A model generated the notes under the pieces. It saw only the letters and a list, made by a program, of their open reading frames with translations. It made no database searches and was not told the origin of the DNA. The translations under genes and the position numbers were made by a program. A stretch of DNA of 64,000 nucleotides, taken from the NCBI RefSeq assembly GCF_032854445.1, contig NC_088295.1, positions 54,975,249 through 55,039,248 on the forward strand, read 5' to 3'. This DNA is from Liolophura sinensis. Lineage: Eukaryota > Mollusca > Polyplacophora > Chitonida > Chitonidae. This document shows positions 1 through 33,785 of this stretch, one piece after another; position 1 is the stretch's first letter, and the number at the start of each line of letters is the position of its first letter.

Positions 1-207
1 ATTTGGTGACGTCGTAATGATCTACTTAACATGAATATTATAATTAGCCATGTGCTTGATGTATCGATATTTCTATACTAGTAACAAACCGTGCACTGTA
101 ATTCAACTTGCAGTGGGGTGGCCATCACCCGCACTAAGCTGTCGCTGTGCCATCTAAGGTCGGATAGCCTGAAGTAAACTGTTTTTGATATTTTTCCCGA
201 AATTGCC

Positions 208-392
208 GACTTTGAAGCTTCGCGGGCTCCGTAGTTATACTAAATGGTCAAGGGCCATGACCTCGCATTGAACTAATCAAAATCCTTCACTCTGAGCGTG
301 TTCGATTGGGAGGGTTCCTGCATTGCGCCATTCCTTATGGCAAAATTTCCGCCACACGTGAGGAAGGTCAAGACAAGACGGCAGTCAACATT
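208..392 (+). repeat. Dispersed repeat, copy 1 of a direct duplication
   Basis: This block runs from 'GACTTTGAAGCTTC' through 'GGGCCATGACCTCGCATTGA' to 'AAGACGGCAGTCAACATT'. It matches 1016-1192 in the same orientation with scattered substitutions and small indels. The two starts are about 808 bp apart. I recognise no coding capacity or terminal inverted repeats, so its nature (fragment of a transposable element or local duplication) is open. Confidence 0.8.
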
Positions 393-1015
393 GGATTGAA
401 TAAATAATAATTCAGTTATTTTAAAGCTTTATTTAAATGATGATCAATTTGAAATTCCGAAATTAAGAATTAAACATTGTCACGGAAGCAAGAAAACAGT
501 TGCTTAGTACTAAGTGAATAAAATTCTTAAAATTTAAAAGCAATCAACTGAATTGTGTTACCAGTTTATTTTTATTGGAGTGAATACAAACTTTGAATTC
601 ATTCAAGTGGTAGGCCTACATGAATATTAAAATAATAATTTGTTGTTTGTTTTTCTGTGCAAATTAGCCATATAGTCTCACCATTGTGAAGACAAACGTA
701 GTATTATTCAGCAGTTTAAATACTGAAATTGCTTTTCATGCCACAAGTACTGTCCTTGTCTGAATGAAAGCTTAGAAGCATTCCTGATATACAAGTAACT
801 GAGTCTAGCATTCATTGCTCTCACTTTCTCAGGAATTAGTCTGTTTACTAGTATTCTGTAGGAATATTTTATAAATTTTGTTTATTCTTTAGGAGGAAGG
901 TGACATCTGCTGAGGGGGATGCATATGCCCCAGACCCCCCAAAAAATGTTGCGCCATACACCCAGAAGTAAAGTCACGTTCATTTATTGAAATAATAAAT
1001 CTAGATGTAATGCAT

Positions 1016-1192
1016 GACTTTGAAGCTTCTCAGGCTCCATATTTATACTAAAAGGTAAGGTCAGGGGCCATGACCTCGCATTGAACTCATCAAAATCCTT
1101 CGCACTATGAGGGATTCCTGCATTGCGTCATTCCTTATGGCAACACTTCCGCTGCATGTGAGCAGGGTCAAGACAAGATGGCAGTCAACATT
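1016..1192 (+). repeat. Dispersed repeat, copy 2 of a direct duplication
   Basis: This is the second copy of the block at 208-392. It keeps the 'GACTTTGAAGCTTC', 'GGGCCATGACCTCGCATTGA' and 'GCAGTCAACATT' landmarks. The two copies bracket an AT-rich 620-bp interval. The arrangement would fit two ends of a larger element (long direct repeats), but no coding region or primer-binding site was seen between them. Confidence 0.8.
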
Positions 1193-1983
1193 TCAGTCCT
1201 TGTTCTACACGTGGGGAAAAGAAGGAAACCAGACAGAATAAAGCCTACAGCTAGGTATTTCCTGTCGAGTTAAAATCGGTTTGAAATGTTTGTTACTCGA
1301 ACACAAGCAGATAGTATACACACCAGTCGCAATGCTATAAATGTTGCTATGTGTTTTCCAAGCAAACATCAAGTTTTCCAAGTACAACAATAACCTAAAT
1401 ATAAATCGAACTAGAACTCGGTTGATATGTCAGACCAACAACTTTAATACTTAGAGTTGGAGAGCAGCCAGAAGTAACAACAGAAAGCCCTGTCGTTACA
1501 GTATACATATGAATGTCAATCATTCTTTAAGGATACATGAAATGAGTTGGTTTTGATTCTTAATGTGCATATTATGATGTTTAATAACATATGACAGTGC
1601 AATCAAATTTTTCACCTTTCATGTTTGGGGGTAAAAATACAGTTTTCGTAAGGCCCCAGCGGTCAGTCTGCAAATTAAGTAGCTTGCAGTGGTGACGTCA
1701 ACGATAATCCCTGTTTCAAAAGAACCTTGTGGGGGACAGACCAAATGGATCAAAAATAGTTACCTAACATTTTTTAACGGTCACATGATACAATTGGACT
1801 GTTTCTACCTTCATCAATAAAAGAACTCAAACTCCCATATTTAAATTTTTGGTGAAAGCAGCCCACCAGTGTATTTATACATGAATAAATTCAGTTACAG
1901 CAATGTCACCGTAATGTAAGTCAACATGGTCTAGCAGTTGTCAATGACAGACTTCATGTACCTTTAATAACACAAAATTACAT

Positions 1984-4900
1984 CTACTTGTTCCACTGCT
2001 GTAAAATTTCAGATACTTTGTCTTCCTGCTTCCATCTTTTGTTTATCTACAACAACAAAGAATGTTACCAAAATCAGACAGCACAGTTAGTTGACAGCTC
2101 CTACAATCTGCATACACAGCCAACAGGGTCAACGCAGAAAAACATCGTGTGAATATTTATGCAATGGTCACATAAACATAAAGGAATGGGCACACTATTA
2201 AAATACACATCAGCTAACTCCACCAATTTTCACTTTATTCAACACATGGCAAGATTGTTAGCAAGCTCCCTTTTTTTTTTTTTAAGTTATGCGCTTTTTT
2301 TTTCTCTTTATATATTTATTTATTACTCTGGTGTTTAAGGTTTAAGCCAGAACCCTGCTCTTGTAAAATGGCATTTACTTGTGGAGAAAATCATGGGGCT
2401 GGAGAGACAAACCTCCTGGCCTAAAGCTGCACCCAAACAAGGCAGATTTATATTTTTTGTTGGTCATGGGTCATTGCACATTTAACATTTTAGATGAATG
2501 AGCCAACAGTGATCTGACTTTTTAAAATCTACATACATATCATCACACTCTTAATTTTCAGGGTTTTTTTTTTGTATAAATGTCAGTGCTGTGTAAAAAA
2601 GAAATCTTTGTGCATGAAAATAGAAAACAAAAAATACCTGTTCCCAGATGTCAACCGGAGATCCAGGTGGTGCTGACTGGGGGCGCCCTCTGTTGGCAGC
2701 TGGAATATCAAGGGAAATAATTAAATGATGCCAAACCAAAAAAAAAATAGGATTCTTACCTCCGGTTTTCAAGGTGTACCCTCTGACAGACTGTTGTTTG
2801 TTTCTTTGTTTATTTTTTTTAGACATTTGCTTTCTACTCATGTTGCTTGATAACTCATATTTGTCATGAAAATAAATTCAATGGTGTAAAGAAATTGATA
2901 ATGATAAAATAGCATTTCATATACAGATTTCATTCTCCAATTAGATATGACTTTCTCCACTCTGACAATACCTCACCTTACTGAATACAGGCCAGATAAA
3001 GGCTACAAACCTTTAATACCTCACCTTATTGCGTAGGAAAGCTAACAGCCAGAAACCTTACCTCTGACAGTCTCACATCACCTTACTTCCTTTAAGCTAG
3101 CTAAAAAGCCAAACATCTTACCTTTGTTAACAGTCTTGAGGGTAAGAGCTACCTCTTCTCTTAGCAGACCTTTGGTGTAGCGAGCCATAGCCATCAGCAA
3201 GTTAGAGCCTCCATGTACATCAAACACCTTCCTCAGCCTCACATCACTGGCTACAAGCATCCGTGTTACGATTAACGCTGAAACAGTAGAGAAGGGCTAG
3301 AATACAACATCATGTTGGTTTATACACATTTAAACATTCAACAAAGGCATATTCAGAGAACTTTGTGTAAGATGTACTAAAAATATGTGGATTTGATCAT
3401 GTTTCTGTAGAGTAGCGAGTATGGTTTGTTTGCTTGAGATAGATTACATCAGATGCATGCATACTGGCATTTGCTGATTTATCTGTTTGAGAATTTAACA
3501 TCTTTTTTCAACATTGTTTGGGTCGTCTAGCAGGCTGGTCCTAATGCCCACATATTTATGGTGCCGCCTCACTGAATGACAGGCCCACATGTACATGTAC
3601 TTGGTCTATCCTATTATACTGAGTGCAATGTACAAACAAATATTAAAATCTTAAGCATGACTTTATTTAGAGCTTAACAGAGAAGAGAACAAAAAATAGA
3701 ACCATAGTTATTTCGGAAGAAGGGTTGAAACAGATCAAAATGTGCACGGCCACAGTTCATCACTTGGTGCACTTATGTCAATTCTTTTAAACTATTGTCT
3801 CCCACTAACATATGCAAGGATTTTTATGAAACTCCACACTACTTTTGCCTAAAAGCTGTTGAGTAATCACACCTGTTATTTCCATGAGATCATCATCTTC
3901 ATTGACACGAAGAAAGTCCACTAGTTTAGGGATACAGCCTCGTTCTGAGAGTGTCATATGAAGTGACACCTGGACAAATAATCACAACAGATCATAGAAT
4001 TAACTGTTAAGACAAAAATACACAGTTCCTTTTTCAAAACCATATTAATTTTTGAAAATGAGTTTATTAGGCTGATGTTTTAAATATGCTCAATTATAGT
4101 TTGGTTAATACAATGCTGTTCAGGTATAAGGTTGGAATAAACAGGTTAGAGTTTAGAGGAAACCATCTGACCTTCTCTGGCACATGATCAGTCCTATGAC
4201 TTTCAGAGAAGGAAAACTAGCAGTGATTGAACATCTAACCTCTTTGACAAACTTGCAGATGCTGAGTTGGACTTCACAATAACTCTGATTTCTAAAAAGC
4301 ACTCACATCTCCATGATGAACAAGATCTTCTAGCAGGAGCAGTGTGTGTCTTTTTACAGCTCTGGATTGACTGAAAAGCCCTGTGAGGAGATCACTTCCT
4401 ACACTGTCCAGCAGACAAAGGCGACACTGGTGAGCTATTGGCCGAGTCACATCAACTTTGGGTTTGTTACATATTTCAGTTTGGGTTGGGTCCCCTTGCG
4501 CTGGTAAATCTACTGAAAAAAAACAAAAACAAAAATAATTTGCACGTATATAATGGTAACAAAAATAAAAACACTGAATATATGCACACTTATATTGCTC
4601 TGATAATGCTTTTGGTACACACATATAGCAATGTATCTTTGTAAGAGATGATTTACCAGCATTTATTTGTCTGTCTGTCTGTCTGTCTGTCAGCTAATTT
4701 GTGGGGAAAAAAAGGCAGGTACTTTCTCTACAGCTTGGCCCTGGTAGAAGCACCAATCCAATATGTTTCAGTATGTCCAATATGTGATCTAGATGTCAGA
4801 ATTTAAATTCTTCACCAATGCATGATGCAAAATGATTACATATATGCGAAGTATTGTTCCTTAATTAGTAGTTATAGATTTGCCCTCTCAGAGTGCCTTG

Positions 4901-7900
4901 AGGTTTACATAATGCATATAAAACATGCCTCTAAACTTACCACTATCTGATGTATGATGATATAATCAAATCTGTAATACTTTATAAGTACATCTTTTTC
5001 CTACAAAAAAAAAAAAAATACGGCACAAATGCAGGGTAATCACTATTAATGCACCCACAAATTTAGCAAAGTCTGTTTGCTGTACTCACTAGTACTTGGG
5101 TTGTTGACCCTGACAGGTGTGTTATGCCTGGCCACTAACTGTAAGGGCATATTATGACCATCTGCATCTAAAGCCTTGGCAATTACTGTAGCAACTGATG
5201 GGGACATACTCTGCATAGCTGTTCTCAGTCGTTTCTCTCGGTCCACACCTGGACAGGCTGACTGAGGTCTGAAAATAAATACGCTCAAAATCAGGTAACA
5301 TTTATTATTTGTTTTGATTTTGATTTATTCATTTATCTATTTATTTATTTAATTCTTGTTAAATGCTATACTTTAGAATTTTTCAATTTGGTGACGGCAG
5401 TCAGTTTTTTTGTGTGTGAAGGAAAACCAGAGTTCCCGAGACAAACAGACATTGAACCTCTACCTAGTGTTCAAGGTCAGGCTTGAATCTCAACCAAGTG
5501 TTTCATATCAAAAGACAAGCATGTTTAACCAGAAGTTCATTGCTCTCTCCTGTGTCTTCAATCTGAAGTATTTTACTTTCTAATTTTACACCACACTCCA
5601 AAATACATTTATTTATACAACGGTGGCCTACATTATGGTGGGAGGACACAAGGTAGAGCTTTTCGGAAAACTCATGACCATCTGCAGGTTGCTGGCAGAC
5701 TTTCCCATATACAATCTATTTGAAGTGTCTGTTGTATCTGTTGTCAATGAGCATTCTGTGTTATTATTACTATTTTAATGTATTTCAGACATCAGATATC
5801 ACTGAAGAATACTAATTACTGTAAATAACCATCCATTATTATGACCAAAAAACTAACCGCTGTTTCAAGCACGAGGGTGGGCTATGACGGTCTGAATGCT
5901 TTGGCTTCTCAAAGTCCCCTGGGGAGATGCTAACAACCTTCTCCCCCAAAGGTTGGATTAAACAGCGAAGGATCTGAATACACAGCACCTACAACAGATA
6001 CTTTGGAAAATTATCCACCAGAATTGTTATCACATAAAAGTAACCCTATTCTGACATACGAACATAAAGAAAAAGTAACATTTACCAACAGTGTTACATC
6101 CAGTTCGCGTCAGGCGACGCTTTCTGTCACTGCGAGTGGATTTCATTGGGCAGCACTCACTTCACTAAACTCATAGACACCATCAAGTTCAAACACACTT
6201 GTGTTGTTTCTTTTCCAAACACAATAAACCAGAATTACAACGTCCAAGACAGTCGCACCCTATCTCTCTCTCTGCAGGGGTATCACAAATCCTTTTTTGC
6301 AGCTATCCCTATCATGTGACCATACATGACTGGTAAATAACAACAATGCCATGTGGAGGCTTATCCTAACAGCGAACTGGCTGGCAATGCATGTACTGCA
6401 TAGACTTACAATGACAATCTTTAGTCAAATGATTAGTCAAATGGTTATCAAAAATCAAAAATATACTCCATACAATGGGGAGTATTACAACAGATAGTGA
6501 AAAATTTGATAGACAGAAGGAAGTGTGCATGTATCATATGACTGCGACCACCAGTAACATTGGACAGTTGTTTATTCAACCCAAATAGAGACCTATCATT
6601 CAAACATTCAAACTACATGAGATAATGTCATTAACAGTAAGGCTAATGCCAGTAGTAAACAATGCAGGGTCACATGGCTAGAAAGAAAACCAGGACTATC
6701 ATTAATTTATCTAGAGAGCAACATTTTTATGAATAAGTCAAGGGTGGGTGACCATGTGGGTGAAATAATTCTGTCAATCTGTCCTGGCATAGATACAGTG
6801 TATTTGTAGCATGTAAAACAAAGCAGTAAAAACAACACAGTTAATAAAAAAAACCCAGAAAACATTGGGAATAATTCAGATGCATCAGGGGACATAACTC
6901 CTTTAATGCTAATAATAGAGATATGCAAATAAGTTTTTGGTAGTCCATGCCCACTGTTTGATGGGTTCATTATGGTGTTTCTACAGCCAGTGTGTTGACA
7001 GCTAGATGTACCTAAACAATTCTACTACCCTGATAATGCTCCCCTTTTCTGATCAATAAACCCTTTTCTGATGCATTCTTAAACAATCGCACAAAGTCTA
7101 TGGAAACCCTTCAGTGTATTTCCATTATTCCCATTTTCAGAACCAACGAACAAGCAAACACAAACGAAATTGCATGTCTATGGAAGCACAGGATTACAGC
7201 TGTTGAGAGAAGATGGTATTTGATGTACAAAGCTAATCAAATTGTTATTAAAACAGCTTGTCGAACAAACAGAATTGTATCTACAATATACATGTAAATA
7301 AACATAAAAAGTGAATACATGAAACACTTTTTACATTTTAGCCAATACACTCACCTTATAATTTACATCAGAGCAGAGAATTAATGGTGATACTGCTTCA
7401 AAGACTCCTGCTTCAAACAAACACCTCCTCATTAACCGTCTCTGTGAATCATTTACTTTTTTCATAAGGTCAATGTGATGTTTGTCAAGAATATTACAGT
7501 TGTTACCAATCCTTGAATGTAGAGTGTTTGCACTTTGTTCTACCACAGTTGATGACCTCCATTTTGAATTCTTCCCTCTGGGCGAATTTGACCTTGCTTT
7601 TTCAGTACATGACACACCTGCTGATTGGTCAGCCATATCCTCTTCTCCGGCAACAGGGATGACAATTGGCTGGTTTGAACCACAGCCATATGTAACACGT
7701 GCACTTGTTGGTCGATTACGTTTTGACTGATGGGATTTCTTCATCAAGGGTGTTGGTTTTGCACTTTGGGGCCTTGTTGGGTTTTTAACACTTTCCACTT
7801 CACTCTGAACAGAACTTTGTGATATGTATGTCTGGTACTTCTTATCGCCAAGATTCTCGAAACTTTCACAGGAGCAATAAGCAAACGTCAACATAAGTTC

Positions 7901-10900
7901 CATCAAAGACATTATGAAGAGCTGTTCATTTTCCTCAAACATGGCTTTAATTGATGATGCCGATGCTGTCCTCTTTTGCAACATAATCTTCGGGACTGCC
8001 ATTACAAATGACTTTGCTTTCTGTAAATATTTCTCCATTCGCGTTTTAAATCTTCGAGTGTAAATCCTGAGGAAATCCACCAGACTAGTCCCGCACACAT
8101 CCCACACCAGCTGAGTCTGCTGGGGATTAACACGAGACAGCATCAGCCTGATAATAGAAACAGACCAGGAAATAATGTATAATCAGAAACAATGGAATTT
8201 TAGTTTGTTTGAGTACTAGTATACAAAATGAACGTGCCTTGTCTCTTTTAGAGAACACATAATATTTTAATTCTTAACCTTTGTTCTTTGCCCTCTGCAC
8301 ATCACTGCTTCATCGCATACCATGTTTCAACTTTCTACACTCTTTTACATAATAAATCTACCAATTTGAGAAATAACCATTGTCAGTCAGGTTAGGTCCC
8401 TGTTATGTGTTATATGTCCTATGTCTTATACCTACAGAAGATTTATAATACTGTACCAAATTAGCACACGTATACATGTAGTAATTAAAGAATAACATTT
8501 TACTTACCAACTAATCAAGTGTTCAATTGTTCCTTGGAATTTGAGTTTGCTTTAAAATCACTATAAATGCAGTTCTATTGTTCTAAATACACATGAAGCG
8601 AGAAGAAAGTAAAAATCCTAACAAATCATGAGCTGGCCATTACTTACCGTCTGGACTCACTATCAGCCAAAGATGAAGTATCAGCTGCCACATCTGAACC
8701 AGGGTATTGAGACCCGCTAGAAATGTATGGCTTAGTCCAGGGGAGGCAGCATACCACCTGCAAGACGTTAACAGCGTTTCTAAGGGCAGACAGCTTTGTG
8801 AGGCCCTTGTCTACACCTGGAGAAAGGTGAACACTGAGGTGCTGGCCTAATGGACCTTTCTCTATGCAACCTATAAACACAACAATGTAACTTAAATACA
8901 TATATATATACCAGGCTTAAAACCTGTTAAACACATAAAATCTTGAAATTTCTTAAACTTTATGACTCTACATAAAGGCAGAGTCAAAATAGTGGATGGC
9001 CCAGTATTGGTAATACTGCTACTTGGGATACCAGGGCTGGTGTTTTTGCCATGGCATTCCACTGACTTAATGAAAGATTTTTTCTTAATGATAAACATTA
9101 GCAATATTTCAGCAATATCATGGAGGAAACAAGTTAGAACAAGGAGACAATTCCCCTATTTCTTCTAATTTTTGGGACACATGGTCTGCTCATTTTAGCC
9201 AGTACAAATGTAAATGCAAGAGGAATATTTAGTTTCTTTTTTCTCAGATGGTTACTCCATCTAATGAACAACATATCCATATTTTCACTTTTCCAAAAAG
9301 CTGGGAAAGAAATATAATGCAATACTCTGGTTTCAGCACTACTAATACCTGTCCCAATAATTAGAAGAATTAGGGTTTGGCTTTGGGCATAGCATTCCAG
9401 TAAGGCAGCAGTATTACTTGCCTGTGGGATTGGCCAGCAGATATCAAGGTGAAAGACGTCATGGAAAGGTATAGGGTATAAGTTAACAACACATTTGGCC
9501 AAAATTGTGAAAACTATGCCTGATAATACCTCAAAATCAGAGTATGTTAGAACAACAGAACAACCTGCTCAGCATATGTATATTGTGGATGTTGACAGAC
9601 AGTGGTTCTGGATCATGAAGCATGATTCAGTATTTACAAGCGTGTTATTTAGATATTTTCACTGCTGTGGATGCGAGAGTAAACCTTGTAGGCAGGTGCA
9701 CAACAGCATAACCACGTCTTGCCCCCTTTCATGATAGAAGAATGCAAATTACACAAATTTCTTACCTTCTTGACACAATAAGTCCACTGTGACTTTCACA
9801 AGTTTTTCAAGACCCACATCCAATTTCACCTGTGGCTCAGATTTTAGTTTCAAAGGGTAAACTATCTGCTGGTCCCCAACATGGTGGACTATCCCAGCAT
9901 GTTCTTCCCTGTTTGGATCTTTGCTTAAAATTTCAAAGAATTCCCACGCTTGTTTGAGAATGTCCTTGACCTGGCCTGGTTTTCTGGTTGATAGGATAGA
10001 GCCCAAAACACCAGCTGCAGTAGCTTTCACTTTCCTAAAGTATTAGATATAGTTAATTTATTTAATAAAGTTAAATTACATTTAATACAAGCCTTGCAAG
10101 CAAAGGTACATACACACGCATGTACATTAATACAATTTTATACCACTGACAAGTGCCAGAAAGTTTGAACATGAAGTATTAAAACATCTTTTCATGAACT
10201 GTGAAGTAGCCACAGAAAGAAAGGAACCCTTGGAAACCATTTTAAAAATTGAATGTACTTGTAGTTTTTGTTGTATTATGAAGTCAACCATATCTGGTAA
10301 ATGTGAAAACACTCAGATCACTTGATTCCCTTAACCAATAAAACTATTCCAGGTAACATTTCTTAAAACAAATACTGGATTTCTCTAAAATCTGTACAAG
10401 GATGTATATATTAGAAGGAAATAAACATCATCAGATATTACCTTTGGTGTTGAACCATTTTCCCAGAGGTATATAGCCTACATTGCAAACAAATCTCAAA
10501 ACACCTTAAGTTTGTAAGATCAACAGAACTCCCAGTATTTGGCAAAACAAGCAACTTTACCAGTCATGGATGAAATTTTAGGCCAAACAAGTACGCTAGA
10601 TTTTAAGAAAGTGCTTTGCCGCACATACCTGCACCTGCTGTCCCTCAGGGCAGACAGCACATAGGGTACCACATTAGCGTTCACCACGTCTGTTAATCCT
10701 GCTGAGGTGTTAATCAGATTACAAATCAGCTTTAGAGAGCGTACCTGTGGACCGCTGTAACAGGAAATCATTGATCGTTACAGAAACAGTGTCAAGTCTT
10801 CACAGATTTTCCTCGTGTATAATTCATTCCATGACATAATAGGTGAAGTAATGTATATTAAGTATGAAAACACATGAATATCAACTCAGGATATCAAAAT

Positions 10901-13900
10901 CTGCAAGAATTTGTTTTTGACTGGTATGTACAAAATTCACCTGTAAATAATAAAGAATGTATAAACTGTATGAAAAATGTATCCAAGTTTCCATACTTAT
11001 CAGTCTTTCAGATATTTAAATGAGATTTAAGATATACATCTTTTCATAATTCTTTATTCTTGTCATTTCTTGCACTTTTATTTTATCAAACTACTATAAA
11101 ATATTTAATTTTTAAAAAGCTGGGTGACTATAAAACAGCAGAAATCCTCAAGGTTAAATAAGTTTTCAACTTGCCTTTGGTCAGGCCATTTTTAAATGAG
11201 ACTTAGAGGGTAAGGACATTCCCACAGTGGAAAACGATTGGCTTACCAAGGTCCAGCTTGCAGCAAGTCTAGCCCAACATAGACGCCTTTATTATCAAGG
11301 TTACCAACTGTAGCTGGGTTGCCATGACATACCAACCCAGTCAGTATTTCTGCAAAGCACTCCTAAAATTACATTAGATTTTAGATAAATTGCTTCATGT
11401 AGATTTACTCATGTAGGCTACTGCGGATAACGTAATTTTAAATTCAGAATTCAGAGAGAAAATATGCAAATAGCATCTCCAAATGAGAAAATAATACATG
11501 CCTTTAAATATACCAAATAATTAAAATTAAATCAACTCAGAATGTAAAGGCTTTTCATTTATTTCTTTGTTTATTTATTCATTGGTATTTAATGCCACCC
11601 TATTCAAAGAATTTTTCACTAACCTGATGATGGTCAGTTTTCGGGGTGCAGGGAACCTGAGTGCTTGGGGTAAACCACCAACCTTTGGCAAGTTACTGAC
11701 AATCTTTCTCTGTGTGGCATTCAGATGATATGAACATCATATTGGCAGAAGACCACTGTCAATGACTACAGAAATGTCCACCAGAGCATTGTGGACCAAT
11801 GATTGTCACCAAGGCCCATAAACAGTGTAGAGGTCTTTCAAACTAAACCCTTAAAAACCCAGATATTGAGTATTAAATTACATATGATATTACCTTGATA
11901 TCTGTATTTTTATCCTTCATTGAAGCTAATACAGGCATTCCTTGGCCAGTTACCCATGATGCCCCTTCTTCCACATTTGACAAGATCTTAAGTATCTTTA
12001 GCACTGCCACTTTTACATCAACTCGCTTCTCATTGGTCAGTTTTGTCAGCAGCTTTGGGAGAAGAGTTTGGATTGGCTCCCACCATATTTCTTTTAGAGA
12101 TGCGTGTTCAATTATCTAGCAGTACAGAAAATCAAACAAATATGCACTATGCAAAGTGACTTCTGAAAGAACAAGAAAATCCAACTGACAGGTAAAAGAA
12201 ATTTTTTTAAGAATACAGATTAAGTGACTTTTGTTTCCTGAACTGGCAATTTTGCTTACTAATATCTTCATTATTTTTGGACATGATTAGCATATCTTAA
12301 CTATAAAAAAATCTAAAAAAAAAACAAAAATACTTTCCATTCCCATATAGGCACAAGTAGAGACTAAATGTACAAGGCACAATGCAAAATCATAACACTG
12401 GCACATTATGAAATCTCCTTTTCAATCAACTTACTTTTCTGATAGCATCCAGAGCAATGGCGTGTACAGGTTTACAATCTCGTGATGTAATGATCAAGGT
12501 AAGGTCATTCAGTACACCTAACTCTATGAGCAGCTGGACATTGTTACCATGGTTACAACACTGTTGTAGGAGAATCAAGCCAGCTTCTCTCATGACAATG
12601 TTTTCTGTGTGAAGGTAAGCAATCAACTGAAAGTAGAAAACATGTACAGTACTTCAACACAAATACAGAAACTGAAAAAAAAGTCTTCTAAATGTGGAAT
12701 CATTCAAGATAAAATTAACAACACAAGATATGTTAGAAACTAGAAGGTTAAACTCAAACCACAATCAGACAGACCCTACATACACCTTCCTTTCCATTTC
12801 ACACTGAGATTCAATGTGTCAGATTAAGCATAAAACCAATCTCCTTTGTTTGCTCATGTGAACTCAGCAATCTTTTGTCAATGTAACAGGACAATACACA
12901 CAGGCAGGCTAACACCTCCAAGCAATTTCTCTCTGAGCAGGAATTTTCAAGGTTAATCTGTAGAAGATTTTTACAGAAATTACCAAATTACTGTCTAAAC
13001 TGTATTTCATTGTATGCTCTTTACAGAAATTAAACAGACAAAAAAGCGATTCACACATTTGTGCATAAATACAGAATTTTTTTTTTTGATTTAATTGATT
13101 TGATAATTTAACACCTAACACCCAACTCAATAATTTCTCAATCATACCGTGGCGGTCAATTTTAACCTAAGTCCCTGGCCTAATCTACTGGCCTTGGTAA
13201 AGTTAGTGAGAAACTTTTCCACATGTAATAAACAGACATGCACACTGTACTGGTGGAAGACAAGTGATTTTTGGTGGACCGCAGTGCACGGGTGTCATTT
13301 ACACCTTATTGTCACCAAGGTCCCACAAACATGGAGAGTGAGGAAATCTGAGGTGTGTTCTTGTGGTTGAAAGACGAGCATCTTGACCACTCGCTCACAC
13401 CATGTGTAATAAGAATCACACTCTACAAAGACTGGTGAATTCTGTGATTAGTAGTTGTTACTCTGGTCATATAGACTAATACCTTGTGAACAGATTCTGG
13501 GGTTAATGTCTCTTGGCTCTTGTAACTTCTTATCAGGGTAATCAGTGTTTTCTGCTGAACTGTCACGTCCGCTTTTCTTCTTTGAAAATCAAGTTTTTCT
13601 ATCATATATTCAAAGGAAAGATCTGAAAACAAGATCCATTCTATATCAGTGTGACATTTCATACGCAGTCTTCACTTCTTCATCACCTGTTCAACCTGAC
13701 TGATTGATCTACTAATATTTAATGAGAACCACAAGGATTTCTCACTGATATGATGGCCATAAGCTTTATGTGTGTAGCAAACTGACGCACCTAAATTTTA
13801 TATTTTATTTACAAATCCACTATGTGCTAGGCAACTCCAGAAGAAAAAATGTCTGTTCCACAGCCAATGAATAATAAATTTCAGATCGCATAGTTTTTGG

Positions 13901-16900
13901 CTCCTGATGAAGAAGATATTTACATGTGAAGAGTTTAGGCACAAAAGCAGATAAACACCATTCATGCCAATATTTGAAAAAAATTGCATTCATGGAACTT
14001 TTTCTATCTGCTAACTTTGTGATAATTACATTTTTTACACCTACCTTCATAATTTCTACAATCCCAAAACAGCAGAAAAATACTAAACTTAATTTGATGC
14101 AAAATGAAAAACTGAAATGAGTTTATCTGTTTTTGCGTCTGAACTCTTCATGTATTATTTGAAAAATGTTAAATAACAAGATTGTGACCATGAGAGTTTT
14201 GTTCTGAAATAGCCAATTTCAACATAATCAGTGATGTCTAAACTGGCTTAACCACCACTCTGTCAGCCTTTTAAATATATAAAAATATAAATATGATGTC
14301 AAAGGTATAGAATACAGCTCTATGTAATATTTGCTACACCAGTAGTGTTAAACAGTTTCAGTGTAAACTGAGGACTTCAGCGTTTACAATGCCACCTGAT
14401 GATGATGATATACTTTCACCCAATAGCAATGTTATAATCAATGTCGAAATATTGAGTCACAATGAACGTATCAATTTTCAGTCTAACACTACTTGTATAA
14501 AACTGATCAGTGGAAGTACTGGTTTCTTTAAAGTGTGTTTCCAATAACTAATCAATTGATCAGTTTCTGACATACTCCTCACCTTCTTCCTCTGATGATG
14601 AAGAACTTTCCGAATCTTCTTTCAAAATGTCACTGAGGGTTTCTTTCTTTCCATTGTCTCCAACAGCCACTTTATAACACTCACAGCCAGTGTGGACTAA
14701 GGGGAGATAACTCCTGTCCTGACACTGACTCAGTTTGCTCAATATGTCATTAGTGTTCAGCCTGTCTGGATCATCCCTGAAACAAAACGCGAAAGTGACA
14801 TTGAAGCAACTACCAAGTGACACATAGATGTAGAACTTGTCTTGGATACTATCCTGACTTGTTTGCTAAATTCAAGATGTATTTTGAAGTTATTTGATTT
14901 TATTTATTTATTTGATTAAAAACCATGGTGATGCCATTGTGTCTCATGAATTTTTACAAGGCGGCGACTAATGTGAGACTTATGATCACTGATTTATTTG
15001 ATTTATTTATTTGATTGGTGATTGGTGTTTTGCGCTGTACTCAAAAATATTTCACTTATACAATGACGGCCAGAATTATGGTGCGAGGAAACCGGGCAGA
15101 GCACGGGGGAAACCCACAACCATTCGCAGGCTGCTGGCAGACCTTCCCACTTACAGCCAGAGAGATCACTGATTTCAGTAAGAAAAGTTCCAGTTAAGAA
15201 ATAAACAAATAAATGTCTAATTTTTATGCAAATGTTTTGTAAAATGATAGATTATTTTTGAAATGACATTTCACAGAACTATTTATCTAATTTTAATTTA
15301 ATCTCATTGTAGGATTAGAGCTACATTAAGGCAAATTCAAACCACTGGTTCTCACCCAAAGCCTTCGTATCTCAGCTTAGAGGTGGATGTCCCGAATATG
15401 TCCTTCCTGTCCCCTGCGATAAGTAACTGTTGTGAGTGGGCGGGCACCCAGTGTTTTGTAAACATGATGCTCTGCTCATCTGACACATGCACTCATAAAC
15501 ACAGTAAAATCATCTTATGCTGGCCATCCTGGAAGAGGAAATAGGTCTCTGAAACAAAGCAAAACACAAATATGATTTAGGTTGGTATAAATATTACACA
15601 TAATTTTACACATAAGTTATTCTCTTTTAGGTCAAATGGGGTAAACATGATGTTTTGGCTGTGGTTTAGGCCAACTTTAAAAAAATCTTTGTTGGCGGTA
15701 ACCTCACTCTGTCAGAAAGTAATAGTTTCAGTTGGTTAAGATTTTTTTATTATTATTATCATTCTAGCTGATGAAAAAAAATATTGGTATACTAAAGAAA
15801 TTAACATGGAGAGAGAGAGAGAGAGAAGAAAAAAAACCATTCCATCAAAGGCCCAGTAAAACGTTTCTTGGTCAGGTAGCCTTTAGTGAACATATTTTTA
15901 CTGACGGCTTACTTAAGTAGATTTGTCGGTGATACTGAATGAAATAAGTCAGACCACAATTAATTCTGACCTCTGCTTGGTTTCTTTGACCTGTTGATAT
16001 GACTGCTCTGATATGCACAATACAAGCGCACAAGAGTACTGCAATTCAATGCTTGCCAGTAAAACATTTATGGTGTTCACACAAAGAGCACAAATACATG
16101 CTTAAGAGTCTTCAGACTAAGTTAAGCTATAGAGTGGTATAACAAGCAAACCCTATATGTTGCTAGAGCTGTAAGTAGGAAGGTCTTCCAGCAACCTGCG
16201 GATGGTCATGGATTTCCTTCAGACCTGGTTTCCTCCCACCATAATGCTGGCTGCCGTCGTATGAGGACAACGGCTAGTTTTCACTGACAGCTCCTCAACG
16301 ACAATCACGCACAGTTAAGTGTATGCATACTATGTGACATTTGTCAGAAAATGTGCAGATTTTTAATTACCCCACCTTTCTCCCTATTTTATTCAGCACA
16401 ACAAACAAATCATGAAATGACCCCCTTCCCCCCACCCCCACCCCCACCCCCACCCCCGCTCACACACACACACACAGAGATCATATACAAAACAACATTA
16501 TATACTAATTAAGTCCTGTCCTATTGTAAAAAGTCATTTTCCGGGAAACACATATTGCCTGATATTGAATTATTTGTCCAACTAAAAAGGGACAATATTT
16601 GGTGAAGTTGGACTAATCTTATCAGAAAAACTTAAATACTGGTATCACAAATAACATTTTCAGGCCTTTTTGTGCTTATGATGTGCATTTTTAGATATTG
16701 ATAGTGAGTGAATTAGGTCAACCTAAATCACTCATTGTTTTATATATTGTTTATATGTTAAGTATATTCACTTACCGACAAGGATTATTTTGACCCTTTG
16801 ATGTGCTATGTTGAAAGTATAAAGCAAGATATACTGGTCAAGAAACAAATTTGCAGATATACTGATTCAGTGAGCTAAATGATCTCTCTCCTTATTTAAC

Positions 16901-17322
16901 ATTCTAACATTTACCTTGTCAGTCAATATAAAACATGGAGTTATTACACTTAACGTTGTTGAATTATAGATACATCTGACCTCAGGAAACCCAAAAGTTT
17001 TAGAAGTTTAAATTCAGAGACATACATCTTTATCCAAGAATTATTTTTTATAAATTGCATATAACTATTGCCTTGTCTCATGTGAGTTAATGAAATGATT
17101 GGTATTTATAGCCTGTCTGTTATGTCAACTGCTCATCTCAGAAGGTCCTAAATTATAAATCAAATAAATAAATAAATATTAAACTATATACTTACCAGCA
17201 AGAATATTATGGTGACCACACCTTGCAAAGATAGATATGATATACCAAATCTCCCTCTGCATTCGCATATCGTCACGTTGTTTTATTTGTTGAACTTTAT
17301 GTGTAACTTTGGGCAATAAACA
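1984..17322 (-). CDS. ARM/HEAT-like helical-repeat protein with RPxSA motifs (unassigned), 19 exons
   Basis: Exons in transcript order: 17196-17322, 16776-16805, 15356-15548, 14583-14776, 13483-13622, 12435-12626, 11894-12115, 11247-11362, 10629-10754, 9766-10034, 8648-8870, 7355-8147, 5858-5988, 5090-5268, 4307-4512, 3873-3969, 3122-3277, 2638-2699, 1984-2046 (stop TAG). All junctions have GT/AG and matching phase; total 3519 nt, 1173 codons. An in-frame TGA at 15493-15495 interrupts it. The first Met after it (15463-15465) gives about 1092 residues. The middle region has armadillo-like helix pairs, for example 'VQLLIELGVLNDLTLI' and 'VRSLKLICNLINTSAGL'. A Ser/Glu-rich acidic patch follows the third exon. 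The motifs RPQSAK, RPTSAR, RPQSAC and RPQSAP occur along the C-terminal half; such motifs are frequent in ciliary proteins, so a ciliary role is only an inference. I do not recognise the family. The true start is uncertain: the first in-frame ATG of the 5'-most exon is at 17266-17268, but the open frame extends upstream of it. Confidence 0.85.
2300..2440. other. Low-complexity and AT-rich intronic/UTR sequence
   Basis: Poly-T and TATTTATT-type tracts are followed by non-coding sequence between the last two exons of the ARM-like gene. The remnant after the TATTTATT run resembles the 3' tail of a minus-strand SINE but is too diverged to assign. Confidence 0.3.
4669..4692. repeat. (GTCT)n microsatellite
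   Basis: About six tetranucleotide units of TCTG/GTCT sit in an intron of the ARM-like gene. Confidence 0.9.
5320..5480 (-). repeat. Degenerate SINE-like repeat in intron
   Basis: A TTTATTTATTTA tract is followed by 'GAATTTTTCAATTTGGTGACGGCAGTCAG', which resembles the common lophotrochozoan SINE body 'AATATTTCACTTATACGACGGCGGCCAGCATTATGG' in degraded form. The orientation is minus, with the AT-rich tail at the lower coordinate. Exact ends are unclear. Confidence 0.45.
5605..5710 (-). repeat. tRNA-derived SINE body fragment
   Basis: Landmarks are 'TATACAACGGTGGCC', 'ATTATGGTGGGAGGA', 'ATGACCATCTGCAGGTTGCT' and 'GGCAGACTTTCCCA'. It matches the body of the complete SINE at 63763-64000 on the opposite strand. 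The tRNA head is missing. Confidence 0.85.
11560..11830 (-). repeat. Second, older SINE/MITE-like family copy
   Basis: A TTTATTTATTCATTGGTATTTAATGCC tail leads into 'GAATTTTTCACTAACCTGATG', 'GGGGTAAACCACCAACCTTT' and 'GGCAAGTTACTGACAA'. Similar wording recurs at 13140-13395 ('GTAAAGTTAGTGAGAAAC', 'ATTGTCACCAAGGTCCCA'), so this is a distinct repeat family from the main SINE. It is intronic in the ARM-like gene. Confidence 0.6.
13140..13395 (-). repeat. Second copy of the older SINE/MITE-like family
   Basis: It shares 'TTGTCACCAAGG' and 'GTAAAGTTAGTGAGAAAC'-type landmarks with the element at 11560-11830. It ends near 'CCACTCGCTCACACCATG'. It lies in an intron of the ARM-like gene and has no coding capacity. 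Confidence 0.5.
14994..15170 (-). repeat. tRNA-derived SINE, body and tail, head missing
   Basis: The AT-rich TTTATTTATTTGATTGGTG tail is at the low end. It is followed by 'TGTACTCAAAAATATTTCAC', 'ATGACGGCCAGAATTATGG', 'GGGGGAAACCCACAACCATT' and 'GCAGACCTTCCCA'. It is inserted in the intron between exons 14583-14776 and 15356-15548 of the ARM-like gene. Confidence 0.9.
15493..15495 (-). other. In-frame TGA inside exon 15356-15548
   Basis: Read on the minus strand in the frame fixed by both flanking junctions, this exon gives 'ETYFLFQDGQHKMILLCL', then TGA, then 'VHVSDEQSIMFTKHW'. Both sides look like real coding sequence. No alternative GT/AG pair removes the stop without leaving an intron of about 25 nt. 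It could be a sequencing or allelic change (TGG or CGA to TGA), an upstream open frame with re-initiation at the Met encoded at 15463-15465, or recoding. Confidence 0.8.
16150..16275 (+). repeat. tRNA-derived SINE body fragment
   Basis: Landmarks on the plus strand are 'AAGTAGGAAGGTCTTCCAGC', 'AACCTGCGGATGGTCATGG', 'TTTCCTCCCACCATAATG' and 'GCCGTCGTATGAGG'. The head and A-rich tail are missing. Confidence 0.85.
16427..16480. repeat. (CCCCCA)n tract followed by (CA)n
   Basis: A run of C5-A units is followed directly by a CA dinucleotide run, within an intron. The complementary G-rich strand could form a G-quadruplex. Confidence 0.9.
16776..16805 (-). CDS. 30-nt candidate microexon of the ARM-like gene
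   Basis: A 30-nt segment is bounded by an AG acceptor after 'CAACATAG' and a strong GTAAGTG donor. It enters and leaves in phase 1, so it can be included or skipped without changing the frame. It encodes about ten residues, 'AHQRVKIILV'. Because it is so short, its reality rests on the splice signals and phase only. Confidence 0.5.
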
Positions 17323-17602
17323 CTGTTAAACATGCAGTTACTTTAAACATGAATTCATAAACTTAGGCCTGTTCTCCAGATTCAGAGACTATGTTCCACA
17401 CATTCTACCGTAGGATATACAGTACACTACAGCTCTACAAGGCTATATGAGGAGTTGCCTATTTGGTTTAAGTCCAGACAGTGTACCTTCTCAATACAGA
17501 TTTGATCACTATATAGTCAAACACCTTCACTTCTCACAGCTCCACAGGCAACCATTGAAGTGTGTGACATGTCATCGTATAAATTTAATTTCTCTTTTTA
17601 CC

Positions 17603-17972
17603 TGAATGGGCGTAAGTGGTAACAAATTATCACCACCTCTGCATGTTCACGCGTTTGCTTTCAGTAATGTCAACATGTCAATCATAAACAATTCCCAGAT
17701 GGATGTAAACACAGCACATGTCACATCATGTCACCAACTATAACCCACGCGCGATCACAGTGAGGGAGCTGTCATTAATTTGTAACTTACCAACACATTT
17801 TTGGATAATTTTTGTGTTAAAAAAGACATCAGTGCTAAAAGTCACTGTGACTGTTTCACTAAACAAATAAGTTGGGATGTGGTGTTTAAATATTTAAATT
17901 GCTAGCATACTAGCTTTGAACATGAGCTGCAAAGTAAAATAAACTAACAAACAGCTCCATAATCAATAGATC
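17603..17972. promoter_or_regulatory. Inferred bidirectional promoter between the ARM-like gene and PCNP
   Basis: The PCNP start codon (plus) is at 17973 and the first recognised coding exon of the minus-strand gene ends at 17322. A candidate non-coding first exon of the minus gene has a donor, CAG then GTAAAAAG, with its exon edge at 17602. This leaves under about 370 bp for both start sites. The interval contains 'ACGCGCGATCACAGTGAGGG' near 17748. No TATA box is evident. Start sites are inferred, not seen. Confidence 0.5.
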
Positions 17973-20900
17973 ATGGCGGCGAAACCAATCGTTGTTGTTG
18001 AAACTGGTAAAGTTCCACAGATTTCAACCATTTTTTTAGCGTTTACGACATTTTTCAGCTTGAAGCACGGTATCAATCTAATAACTGTGCCCCCATTCGC
18101 TGGAAATATCTATGTATAATGCTCTAAAGTTTGGCATTCAGCTAACACCAAGTGTTCTGCACGTTGTTTTCTCCTGTTCAAAAGGGCTATCGGAAGTCCA
18201 AATATCGTGGGTTTATGAGAAAGCAAGTTTTCCGACGTTTTCTTCTAAAAAGCTATCTTGTATGTGTGTGTGAACGCGTGTCATTTAGTGAATGGTATAT
18301 TTTTTGCCTGATTGACACCAGTAATGCAGTCGATGCGTCGCTGATGAGATATATCTGCATATGTATACATTTATAAGCGTTACTTGTTTCAAAGTTTAAC
18401 TAAGGCAATTTAATTCTCAAACCACTGTGTACCTATTCATTCCAACGTCATCTCATACCCAGGTCATTTCTAATCCTGTAAAGCTAGTGAAACTGAACCA
18501 TTCACGTCAAATTCTTTATCATATAACAGCTAGGTGCATGCTATCATACAAGTATGACTTATTTAAGACTAGTTTGCACCCAAAAAGAAACCAGTCAAAT
18601 GAATTTTGGTATACAGTATAATTCAGAATTTTTCAAGACCGCCAATTTTCATGTCTCTTTTCTGTATTCCGAAGTATAAACATGCAAATATGTGCATACA
18701 AGCACATTAATATCTTCTTCTGGTAATCCATTAGCCTTTGACCAGTGAGATCCCTGGTTTGAACTGCAGGTTTATATATTTATTTATTTGATTGGTGTTA
18801 TATGCCGTACTCAAGAATATTTCACTTATACAACGGCGGCCAGCATTATGGTGGGAGGAAACGGGGCATAGCCCGGGTGAAACCCATGACCATCTGCAGG
18901 TTGGTGGCAGACCTTCCCACATACGGCCGGAGAGGAATCCAGCATGAGCTGGACTTGAACTCACAGCGACCGCATTTAAGTCAAGAACATTTTTAGGTAT
19001 TTAGTGTAGTGTAGCCGATGATTTCCCTTTTAACTGGCATATTCTTGAGTATAGAATCAAACATCAGTCAATTGAATATAAACATTATTATTATTTCATA
19101 ACTCTGTCGCATAAACTTGTATGTGAAGGTGAAGATGAATATTCTCTCTGCTCCATGACTATTCAGTGTATGTTAGCCTTTTTATCTGTATGATTTATTA
19201 ATGAATTAATTTTAATTCAAAACAGTATTATCCATTGAAATACAAAAAGGTAAACTTCGACTGTTTCCTGTTTTTCTTCTACTTTTCTCTGCCTTTCACA
19301 GTTGCCTTTTCTGATGATTGGTGAGTAGCAAAGTCTACAAACGTTTCAAATTTGCCAGTCTTTCAAATTGATCAGGAGCTGATGGTGCTGTGGGAAATCA
19401 ACATGGAACGAGGGAAAGAACTCACACAGGGGAGAAACGCAAATCAGATGGCGGGTTGGTCAACAGTGAACCAGTGGAAAAGAAAAAATTTTCCCTATCC
19501 ATGAATTCCAGTCCGGGAGGGCCCTCAGCAAAGAAGATTTCCATATCACTGGGGAACCCTGGCAAGCCTCCAACTACTGGCCAAAACTCTGTAACCAAAG
19601 CTCCTGTCAACCCAGTCAAGTTATCCATGTCATCAAAACCAGTGAGTTGTTTGTCCATCAAAGTCAAATGTTTTTTTTTTAACAGAAATACTTGCTAGAC
19701 TTTTAACAAATTTTTGGCCATTTGATTTTTTGGAAGACACTTCTCATATCCAGTGATGATAATTCAAACATGACTTCAAATAAAGGAAATTTAGGTGGCA
19801 AAGCTTATAAATGTCTGGTTTGGTTCCTATGAAACATGAAGTTTCAAAAAATTGCGAATGGATCATAGATTTTTTCATTCAATTCCCAGACATCTGATAA
19901 AGGTCTGTTGACTCCCAAGTTGGGAAAAAAACAAAAAAAAAACAAAAAAAAAACAAAATATTTAAAATTAATAAACTGATTGATTAATACACTTACCTTT
20001 CTCAGGTAATGTCTACATGTACATAATATGCTGCTCTTAAAGGAATCTTACATGTATAGCTTAATAAAGCAATACGGAATGGTTGCTGATTGACTGGCCG
20101 TGGAAATAAGGTTTCCTGCAGCCTTGGTCGTCCTTGAATAAATATGCCATACCTAAAATTCTGCTTAGGCTAGGCATAGCCTGGACTTAATAAAGCATTA
20201 CGGAATCGTTGCTGATTGACTGGCCATGGAAATAAGGTTTCCTGCAGCCTTGGTCGTCCTTGAATAAATATGCCATACCTAAAATTCCGCTTAGGCTAGG
20301 CATAGCCTGGACTTGCCTATGTCTCACACCAGCCAGTTAGAATCGATTCTGTATCCCTTTAATTTCAGAATCTAGACTCTCCACTGTTGGGCTCAGTATG
20401 AGATATCCTATTGATACTTTGTTCAGTCTTTATTTTCACAGCTTTAGTAAATCAATCCCGTTTTGTGATGTATAGGACTATATTTATGTCCAGACACTGT
20501 TCCAACTTGTGGTTTTACTATTTAAAAGAAATCAAGCAACCAGCAAAGTTTCACACTTGCATTACTGCACTGTGGATTCACACAGTAAACTGTATTTCAC
20601 CTAAAAGTTTGTCAGTGACTTAAGTTGCTTATATTGGCTGATTTTGAGAGTTTTATTGATCTTAGAAAGGTGTTTCAAGTTAGTTTGGAAGGTAGGGTGA
20701 CAAACCACTGGACAAATTGTAGTTTCAATGCAAAAAGTGGTATTTTATACCTTAATTTGCCATTATTTCAAAAATGTATTGTTGGGCCAAAATTTTAGGT
20801 CATTTACATTAGGTACGCCTATTTTTCATGGGCCAGTGCATATTTAATAGGTTAAGTGGTTCTCAAGTATTTGACCTCTTCCCAGATGTGTGAAGTGTAA

Positions 20901-23736
20901 TTTATAGTAGCTCTCTTTATATTGGAATAGGTGTAATGCTGTTGGCATTAATTCTCCTTTGTGAACAGTATCAAATTGATTATGCTGATCTGGTCTTTTG
21001 AACAACATGGCTTGTCAATTACAATAAAATTCCATGCGAGATCTTTGGCCTGTTGCCAAGTCTAGAACATGATTGAAAGGGTTTTCTTTCACCCTTGGAT
21101 TGGCAGGTGAAATGTTACACTTACAGGTGACTCATCTAGTTTATTTTGGATGTGTTCATGTCGTGTCAACATTATGAAAGCTGTTTTACAGTTGATTTCT
21201 TATTGTATTTGATTCATGAATATAGGGTTTTGAATGTGATATGATAAGTGCTTGTATATCATTTTCTCTCTAATGAATTCTTCCAACATTCAAATTAGTT
21301 AAAGTAGCAACTATAATTCAGATTTTTCATAAAGTTCCTGTGATGTCATATAACATCAGTATCTGGAAAAATGAAAGCACTATGGGTAGTGGGTACTGGT
21401 ACCTGATTAACATGCCGAAATAATTAATACAATTAATACAATATAGTACACCTGTATGCTCCAAAATAATTTAAATGAAAGAGTGTTTGTATGATTTACA
21501 TGTATTTGTTTTGGTGCTATTTTAGCCCTGTCAAATATTTAATTGTTATATGTGAAGATCTGTTAAAGCACCACAGCAGATTTAAACTTCTACTTTCTTT
21601 GCCACCACAGAAGCTCAGCCGCTCATCTCATTTTGATGCTGGTCATCAGTTGAATCTTGGATCGTTTTTAACTCACCTTCCTCACCGATGACATGAAAAA
21701 TCCTGCAGCCAATTTAAACATTATTTAATCATTGAACCAATCACATAACCAGACTGATGAGAAAGCGGATAAGATTACAGTAGTTTTATGCCACGAGTTG
21801 TAAATCAGCTTTGATTTCAGAACAAGTGGTCATTTTGCCAGAGTTTCTTATGAACCCGGTGTCATAAAGTAAGTTTTAACGGCACAATTCATCCATGTAG
21901 AGAAATTAATTGGTAAGGCTGATAGATGGAGGCAAAAAGTTTCCACGGGAAATCGGCAACGGAACAGTGTGTATCTCCTAACTTTATAGAGGGATTTCAA
22001 CTTGGAACTCTTTTGTTGTTGAAGGTAGAAAATGTCCAACTATATCATGTGACCGGTCAAAAATGTTAGGCAACTATTGTTGATCAAAGTCACTGTAACA
22101 TGGGTGTCTGAAAAATGTGTCATGAAATGTAATTTAGACTGGAGGAAGGATAGAGAAGATTGAGAATCTGAATATTTGTGAACTTGAGAAGTTCCTAAAG
22201 GAATGAGGTGTGATTTGTGCATCTGGAAAAGGGTGAGACAGTTGATCAGTGAATTAATGTCAACAAAGGTTGCTTAACATTTTCACCATTCACATGACAC
22301 AGCAGGACTGTGTTTTTAACTTTGATAACAAAGGAGTTCCAACTTCAAAGTGAAGTGTAGATTTGATTTTGTGTATCAGGATGTCAATTCAGATAAATAG
22401 GCATGGATAATTCTTACTGTGTGTATAATACTGATGTGTGTGTCTCATCAGGTTAACAAGACCAAGTTCATATATAAATCAGTAAAATAAGACCAATCAA
22501 TTAAATACAGACATAATATTTTATGGAACTGTTGTATTTTCTTTTATTTAGAATAAAGACACAGCTGTGAACCTCAAGAAAACTGCCAAAGTAGCAAGTG
22601 TATTCAACGACGAAGATGATGTAAGTAAACATGTTTGGTTGCTTTTGATATAGGTGCTTCCACAAAGTGATGCAAATTGTTAATTGACTTATCATTGAAG
22701 TCACAATTCCTAGTGGCTTGGTATTTGTGAAAGTGAAAGCTGGCAATAAAGTTCCTTAAACTTAGAAAGCCGTTAGCATAATAAGTTTTCTAAACTTTAG
22801 GATTATTGTAACACTATAATAGTACATGTACAAGTCTGATAATTCCTGAAAGGCAATAATTCGAACTGTTTGTGGTAAATACAGAAAATTTCAATAGGTA
22901 AAATGGAAAAATAAAATAAATAAATAATGCCACAGAAAAAACTGTGAACTTTTATTTTTGGTTTGTATAGTGGGAGCTGTTACTGAAATGTTTACAACTG
23001 TGCATTGTGTTGCAGAGTGAAGAAGAAATGCCACCTGAGGCTAAAATGAGAATGAAAAACATTGGCAGGTACATGTAGGAAGTAATGTGCTTTGAATACT
23101 GCTTGTAGAGGCACACATGCTGTACACAGCACTCTGACTCACCAAGTTTGTTTGTTTGCTTGGGAATTAAGGTTTATTTCAACTTTTTTTTTCTCGGTCA
23201 AAAAAAAAGGCACTTATTGGGCAGTCACATTGTTTACATATAGTTTTCATTTTCATTTGTTCATCCTAGATTATAAATTTTAAAGGTATCAATTTGGTTT
23301 TCAAATTTTAACTCATGTTTGCCTTATTTTAGCTGGTTTTAATAATGTCTGTCTATTTTTGTTTGATATTTGGATGTTCTCATCACATCGAAAAACCATT
23401 GACTATTTCAGTGTTTAAATATATTCCTGCCCCATATGGCTGAAATATTACAGATAGCCCTGAACTCTGATTTCATGATAGTAACAAGTTGGGACGTGTA
23501 AGAAAAAAATTTGAAAGACTTTCTATGGCATTGAGACACCTTCCTGAAATTAGGGAAGCCTGCCATTTCACGCAGGTAATCATCAGAAAATTTCTTTCCC
23601 TTGCTTTCTTTTCAGAAATACCCCAACAGCTGCTGGACCAAACTCCTTTGGAAAAAGTCGTCTAGGATTCTGCGATAGGCAGAAAGTCCTCGAAAGAGAA
23701 ATTAAGCAACAAATGGATGAGACAGAGAAAGACTGA
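17973..23736 (+). CDS. PCNP: PEST proteolytic signal-containing nuclear protein, 5 exons
   Basis: Coding exons: 17973-18006, 19376-19641, 22552-22620, 23016-23068, 23616-23736 (stop TGA). Phases agree throughout and give 543 nt, 180 residues; the human protein is 178. PCNP is a small nuclear protein known as a substrate of the ubiquitin ligase UHRF2 (established for the family). The diagnostic part is the C-terminal half. '[10 protein letters not shown]' resembles the vertebrate 'VAAAFNEDED'. It is followed by '[16 protein letters not shown]' and '[18 protein letters not shown]', which are nearly invariant in the family. The N-terminal half is Ser/Pro/Lys rich and low in complexity; 'KKISISLG' and '[12 protein letters not shown]' keep the short basic/hydrophobic blocks seen in vertebrates. 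The start ATG GCG GCG AAA is the first in the frame and joins exon 2 in phase 1. Introns are 1.37, 2.91, 0.40 and 0.55 kb. Confidence 0.95.
18775..18990 (-). repeat. tRNA-derived SINE in PCNP intron 1
   Basis: The TTTATTTATTTGATTGGTG tail is at the low end, followed by 'CCGTACTCAAGAATATTTCA', 'CGGCGGCCAGCATTATGG', 'CTTCCCACATACGGCCGGAG' and 'GAACTCACAGCGACCGCATT'. It is nearly full length. The B-box part 'GTTCAAGTCC' is present in reverse as GGACTTGAAC; the 5' tip of the head is lost. Confidence 0.92.
20061..20312 (+). repeat. Tandem duplication, 2 x 126 bp, in PCNP intron 2
   Basis: Two adjacent units start at 'TTAATAAAGCAATACGGAAT' (20061) and 'TTAATAAAGCATTACGGAAT' (20187). They are almost identical through 'GCATAGCCTGGACTT', which indicates a recent duplication. 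Confidence 0.95.
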
Positions 23737-30717: not shown

Positions 30718-32248
30718 ATGAGTGATTTCCTCAAACCGGCTGTTGCAGTAATTATTCCCAATCTTGGAGGAATTGCTGGATCTTTCCTCACTCGACAAAA
30801 CATACCAACTTGGTATGAGGTATGTATAAATTAGTCTGAAATATATTTACATACACCTATGCCTTTGTCAGGTCTTCTCGATTACACTTGTATAACATGG
30901 TTTTCAGTTGCATGTCTAAAGGGTTTAAAACAGTTCAACAAATTTGTTTTGTTTTTCTCAAAGGATTTCATTAAACAGGTGGTCAGATTGTGAATGCATG
31001 TGTCTCTTGACGTAAGTCTCTAGTGATTGAACAATACCACCTGGTTCTAGAAATGATGAACATATGTTCCCATTGTTGATTGTCATGTTTGTGGTAACAA
31101 AATTGGCTTTGAGGAGATTGTCATTTAATGTGAGAAAAGTTCAAAAAAATTGAGGCCAATGCCCCATAAGTCCTTTCATTTAGGGAAAGGTTGAAAAGGT
31201 TTCAGATTCTTGTGCTTTTACTGGTATTGCTTATTTTCAGCATTTGAACCGACCATCCTGGCGCCCCCCAAACTACATATTTGGACCAGTCTGGACATAT
31301 CTATACTCCTCTATGGGGTATGCCTCATATCTGGTCTGGAGGGATGCAGCTGATTGTGATGAAGCTAAACTCCCATTGTCCCTGTTTGCTGGACAGCTTG
31401 CTCTCAACTGGGCCTGGACACCCATTTTCTTTGGGGCACACAAGCTTGGACTGGTAAAGACATCCCTCTTTTTGAATATTTTAGAAAATTACAGATATTG
31501 ATTGATAAGATATCTATCTTTGTGAAAATATTTGATGTTAAAATTTTCAAACAGAGATTGTACTAATATTAATATATTTATAAGATTTTATCTGAAGAAA
31601 ATATAATATATTTTAATGTGAAAAATGTCAAACAAGGATGATATTAATATTTATTTATTTGAATAAATTTATTTATTTTTGTGTTTTATCTTTAACAATA
31701 CACTCCAGAGTTTTTCACTTGAATGACAGTCAGGTTTATTGGTGGGAGGAACAGGAGTGCCTGGAGTAATATAACACCCCGTGCTGTGTACATAATACAC
31801 CTCTTGACTTAAAGCTGAAATGGAAGACAACTTCAATATTACATATACAATATAGTATTATCGTTATCGGGATTACACTTTCTGAATATAATACTGTTAC
31901 TTAATCCACTTTGTAAATGACATCTATACATATACAATATATGTGAATTTGTCTTATTGCCAAGAATGTCAAAAAGTTTTTATTTTATTTACCATTTGAG
32001 TTTTAATTATACATACATACACACTCACACACACATATCTTGTATTTTTACAAATATGGCTTGTTTTTATGTTTCAGGCTACAATTGAAATCGGAGTATT
32101 GTGGGGTGCCATTGTTGCTACGATGTACACATTTTATCCAATCAACAAAACAGCATCTCTTCTACTGCTTCCTTACCTAGGCTGGGTGTCATTCGCATCA
32201 GCTTTGACCTACAGCATTTGGAAAAGAAACAAAGACAGAACAGATTAG
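30718..32248 (+). CDS. TSPO: Translocator protein (TSPO/peripheral benzodiazepine receptor), copy 1
   Basis: Coding exons 30718-30819, 31241-31453 and 32078-32248 (stop TAG), all phase 0, give 161 residues; human TSPO has 169. TSPO is a five-helix protein of the outer mitochondrial membrane that binds cholesterol and porphyrins (established for the family). Diagnostic blocks are '[17 protein letters not shown]' (loop after helix 1 and helix 2), '[12 protein letters not shown]', and '[18 protein letters not shown]' (helix 3, the family signature). The C-terminal helix contains 'LTYSIWK', which satisfies the CRAC cholesterol-recognition pattern L/V-X-Y-X-K/R. The ATG lies directly after an AG acceptor, so an untranslated first exon is upstream. 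A paralogue is at 38476-40210 on the other strand. Confidence 0.97.
31660..31790 (-). repeat. Degenerate SINE fragment in TSPO intron 2
   Basis: 'GTTTTTCACTTGAATGACAG', 'TTATTGGTGGGAGGAACAGG' and an AT-rich TTTATTTATTT tail at the low end resemble a strongly diverged SINE body. Confidence 0.55.
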
Positions 32249-33704: not shown

Positions 33705-33785
33705 CAGACCAAGAGAGATAGCTAAAATGTTAATGATGATCATGGAGCAACTTGTACTCCATGAGATGCCGGTTCAAACCCAAGA
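33705..33785 (+). repeat. tRNA-like SINE head directly upstream of the 91-bp minisatellite
   Basis: 'GAGATAGCTAAAATGTTAATG' is a weak A box and 'GCCGGTTCAAACCC' a good B box. The head runs straight into the first unit of the tandem array, which suggests that the array arose inside the body of the element. Confidence 0.5.

Follow-up and report, generated by a model that had tools for sequence, protein, structure and literature searches.

An in-frame TGA (15495-15493 on the minus strand, read directly from the sequence) raises the question of whether it interrupts a protein-coding gene, is recoded, or simply lies outside the coding sequence. The codon is located within the segment 15356-15548 of the window, i.e. 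the whole stretch of 64,000 nucleotides of Liolophura sinensis DNA that was analysed, and had been regarded in an earlier note as a stop interrupting an otherwise intact frame of 19 exons and 1172 residues. The TGA is indeed present in this segment, which occurs as one copy in the assembly and has good splice sites at both ends (3', TTTCAG/, scoring 4.0; 5', /GTGAGA, scoring 3.9). Additionally, a second 3' splice site at 15528 scores 5.3 (versus 4.0 for 15548), and both positions are candidates for the 3' splice site of this exon.

Reconstruction of the gene by hand from the sequence yielded 17 AG/GT-bounded exons on the minus strand, which run from 15548 to a TAG at 1984-1986 and join in one frame (15356-15548, 14583-14776, 13483-13622, 12435-12626, 11894-12115, 11247-11362, 10629-10754, 9766-10034, 8648-8816, 7355-8147, 5858-5988, 5090-5268, 4307-4512, 3873-3969, 3122-3277, 2638-2699 and 1984-2046). 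The TGA is the sole internal stop in the 1103 codons of the joined sequence, and the 1083 sense codons that follow it contain zero further stops, as opposed to the 85 and 79 stops present in the other two frames. The gene downstream of the TGA is therefore intact rather than interrupted, as its 17 exons join in one frame with this codon as the only internal stop. The agreement of exon phases that had been claimed for 19 exons thus holds for these 17, while the two further upstream exons were not confirmed. An ATG at 15465 opens an ORF of 1074 aa over the 17 exons, giving a coding span of 1984-15465 on the minus strand.

The gene is single copy in the 609-Mb genome, and its product may tentatively be described as a diverged ARM/HEAT-like protein on the basis of local profile similarity. 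The spliced protein resembles ARM/HEAT-repeat proteins in its weak Pfam matches to PP4R3 (E 5.4e-05), Arm (0.052) and HEAT_2 (0.14); however, it differs from them in that all three matches lie under the curated cut-offs (22.5 bits against a cut-off of 27 for PP4R3, the best match) and in that searches of the PDB by sequence retrieved no meaningful match. No stray relatives were detected in the 84,980 prokaryote genomes scanned, as expected for an animal gene. A piece of 113-116 bp (10595-10710, minus strand), in which the 3' portion of exon 10629-10754 is followed by 34 bp of intron, has two further copies about 0.9 Mb away (L027:1921-2036 and L027:7045-7157; 90-93% identical), both of which adjoin the SINE-like repeat and lie inside a tandem-like 735-bp duplication; it seems that a mobile or duplicated unit has picked up a fragment of this exon. 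A dispersed repeat (1016-1363) lies close to the gene's 3' end, with some 20 strong copies elsewhere (approximately 79-86% identity over about 340 bp) in addition to shorter pieces.

Codon use around the TGA was scored with a model trained on 1401 codons, most of them from the gene's remaining exons, supplemented by candidate exons elsewhere in the window; exon 15356-15548 was left out of the training and intronic triplets served as the comparison set. The 17 codons before the TGA (15496-15546, minus strand), which read TYFLFQDGQHKMILLCL, obtained a score of -3.8, against a coding mean of +3.1 and an intron mean of -4.0, which corresponds to the 50th percentile among intronic open frames and the 0.8th among coding segments of equal length. 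Furthermore, the first six residues of this peptide (TYFLFQ) correspond to CCTATTTCCTCTTCCAG, the pyrimidine tract of the 15528 acceptor, and the whole stretch probably represents leader or intron end rather than coding sequence. Conversely, a score of +3.1 was obtained for the 36 codons that begin with the ATG at 15465, placing them at the 97th percentile relative to intronic open frames and at the 23rd relative to coding segments. The nine codons between TGA and ATG (VHVSDEQSI) are also coding-like (+3.5, 98th percentile of intronic frames), although they are too few to weigh much. Of the credible protein that had been described on both sides of the TGA, the part from the ATG at 15465 thus scores as coding, while the 17 codons before the stop score as intron.

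The space available for further coding exons is limited by a divergent neighbour on the plus strand, PCNP (17973-23720, the end being approximate), for which a first exon placed by inspection suggests a start, ATGGCGGCG, at 17973. Once joined, the candidate exons of this neighbour match Pfam PCNP at residues 20-152 (E 4.8e-34). As PCNP starts head-to-head at about 17973, any upstream coding exons that are not antisense to it must lie in 15549-17972. The CpG observed/expected ratio reaches the maximum of the gene's neighbourhood (0.78-0.90) at 17751-18500, in mostly single-copy DNA near the PCNP start; this is suggestive of a probable shared promoter region, albeit no more than suggestive given that higher CpG peaks exist elsewhere in the window. 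A SINE-like repeat family is present in many copies in the window (15001-15165, 16168-16265, 18771-18976 and others), and a 126-bp unit is found in tandem duplication at 20060-20314 (96% identity).

Upstream coding exons were sought by dynamic programming: the highest-scoring chain of exons that begins with an ATG and joins in frame was set against those obtained from dinucleotide-preserving shuffles. In 15549-17972, the best chain to acceptor 15548 scored 2.0 (10 of 300 shuffles as good, a borderline result), while the best chain to acceptor 15528 scored -0.6 (45 of 300) and that to acceptor 15479, which lies downstream of the TGA, scored 2.0 (17 of 300, again borderline). The exon behind both chains scoring 2.0, and the sole exon of the chain to 15548, is 16436-16484, a GT/GGGGT simple repeat. 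Among 11 control regions of equal size upstream of known exons, 10 gave chains that no more than 1 of 150 shuffles equalled, the exon upstream of 12626 being missed; a short N-terminal exon (under approximately 20 codons) could escape this test. Within these bounds, no coding-exon chain was clearly above chance in the approximately 2.4 kb between the gene and PCNP. The length of 1172 residues is accordingly not borne out: the 66-73 extra codons needed to reach about this figure are supplied by just one loose chain, with a negative score, while the best two-exon ATG chain (17196-17268 and 16776-16805) adds only 35 codons of the roughly 69 required. As neither the stretch before the TGA nor the region upstream behaves as coding, the view of a stop within an otherwise intact 19-exon frame is unsupported.

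A longer upstream chain, extending to 38.5 kb, did exceed dinucleotide shuffles, and was rejected because it runs antisense through the plus-strand PCNP and TSPO genes; it also uses a 91-bp tandem array (33784-34499), a feature which shuffling does not preserve, and its peptide matches no Pfam family. This array contains about eight copies (93% match); its units form an open frame when read on the minus strand and are misleading for gene finding. The TSPO-like gene on the plus strand (31184-32248; Pfam TspO_MBR, 2.4e-44) is accompanied by a second one on the minus strand (39122-39391), recognised only by its similarity to the plus-strand copy, the two being in opposite orientation and about 7 kb apart.

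The TGA is very probably an ordinary in-frame stop of the 5' untranslated region, with translation starting at the methionine encoded at 15465 (MFTKHWVPAHSQQ…). This ATG (15463-15465, minus strand; MFTKHWVPAHSQQLLIAGDRKDIFG...) is the first in-frame ATG after the TGA and has an A at -3 and a T at +4. We infer the promoter position, the leader exons and the start codon as follows: transcription would probably begin within the approximately 2.4 kb that separate the ARM/HEAT-like gene from the divergent PCNP; splicing would join at least one non-coding leader exon to the 3' splice site at 15528 or to that at 15548, so that 15356-15548 represents a putative first coding exon with a non-coding 5' part, as its splice-site and sub-segment codon scores suggest; and translation would start nine codons beyond the TGA, with the ATG at 15465, to run uninterrupted through 17 exons and 1074 residues. 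The earlier note had named this methionine among its options as a site of re-initiation; it is indeed the most likely start, though by ordinary initiation downstream of a 5' untranslated stop and not by re-initiation once an upstream protein has been made. Among intronic triplets here, 6.3% are stops; at this base composition, 45% of starts are expected to have a stop within the nine codons that precede them, and an open run of 17 codons before such a stop is expected in 33% of cases. Given a start at 15465 and this chance expectation, the position of the TGA needs no special explanation. The arrangement resembles that of ordinary eukaryotic genes, both in that the first in-frame ATG of a long intact ORF has a stop a few codons ahead of it and in the intron-like codon use before the stop, and no difference from such genes was seen. 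Five upstream ATGs in the segment 15356-15548 are out of frame or soon terminated, one of them (at 15527) having a strong context (AGGATGG); if all five are in the mRNA, initiation at 15465 would be weakened.

An improbable alternative is that a coding exon further upstream is spliced to an acceptor lying past the TGA, such as that at 15479 (TGTGTCAG/ATGAGC), in which case the TGA would be intronic and the protein would gain a few N-terminal residues. The gene-finding chain prefers this path when forced to extend upstream, and the coding-like character of the codons just after the TGA agrees with it. However, the acceptor at 15479 scores approximately 0, against 5.3 and 4.0 for those at 15528 and 15548 (two other acceptors of this gene are equally low), and its partner exon is the simple repeat at 16436-16484, in a chain that 17 of 300 shuffles equalled.

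Nonsense, allelic and recoding readings are unlikely. It is decidedly improbable that a true N-terminal extension exists upstream and that, in this haplotype, the TGA arose by a recent change, nonsense or allelic, or through an error of assembly. In genomic DNA the frame preceding the TGA stays open for 27 codons, and the chain 17196-17268 and 16776-16805 has GTAAGT donors and can be joined in frame, both of which are compatible with such an extension. Set against this, codon use in the stretch before the TGA resembles that of introns, the assembly holds no second copy of the segment for comparison, and the functional coding sequence that a nonsense mutation or pseudogene would leave upstream of the stop was not found there, the upstream chains being at or near chance level (10 of 300 and 45 of 300 shuffles as good).

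Recoding of the TGA, as selenocysteine or by stop-codon readthrough, is very improbable, since the sole point in its favour is a frame open on both sides, while no Rfam SECIS match was obtained at E ≤ 10 in 1-18500, the only loose SECIS-like pattern in the 3' region (near 1131) sits inside the dispersed repeat family at about 1016-1363, the stop context is TGA-GTG rather than the readthrough context TGA-CTA, and the upstream part is not protein-like by codon use. The search for a SECIS element that the earlier note had proposed thus gave no Rfam match within 1-18500. The locus resembles selenoprotein genes in having a TGA in frame with coding sequence 3' of it, but coding sequence on both sides is not found, codon use before the TGA being intron-like, and the protein here appears to be an ARM/HEAT-like repeat protein and not a member of a redox family. 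Low-level recoding or readthrough giving a minor, N-terminally extended form of this protein is equally hard to credit.

An ordinary 5' untranslated stop followed by initiation at 15465 removes an apparent disrupted or recoded gene from this locus: the gene looks intact, and its first coding exon would be 15356-15548 and not one further upstream. More generally, polypyrimidine tracts can read as plausible hydrophobic peptide, and an in-frame stop lying shortly before a plausible ATG is what chance leads one to expect.
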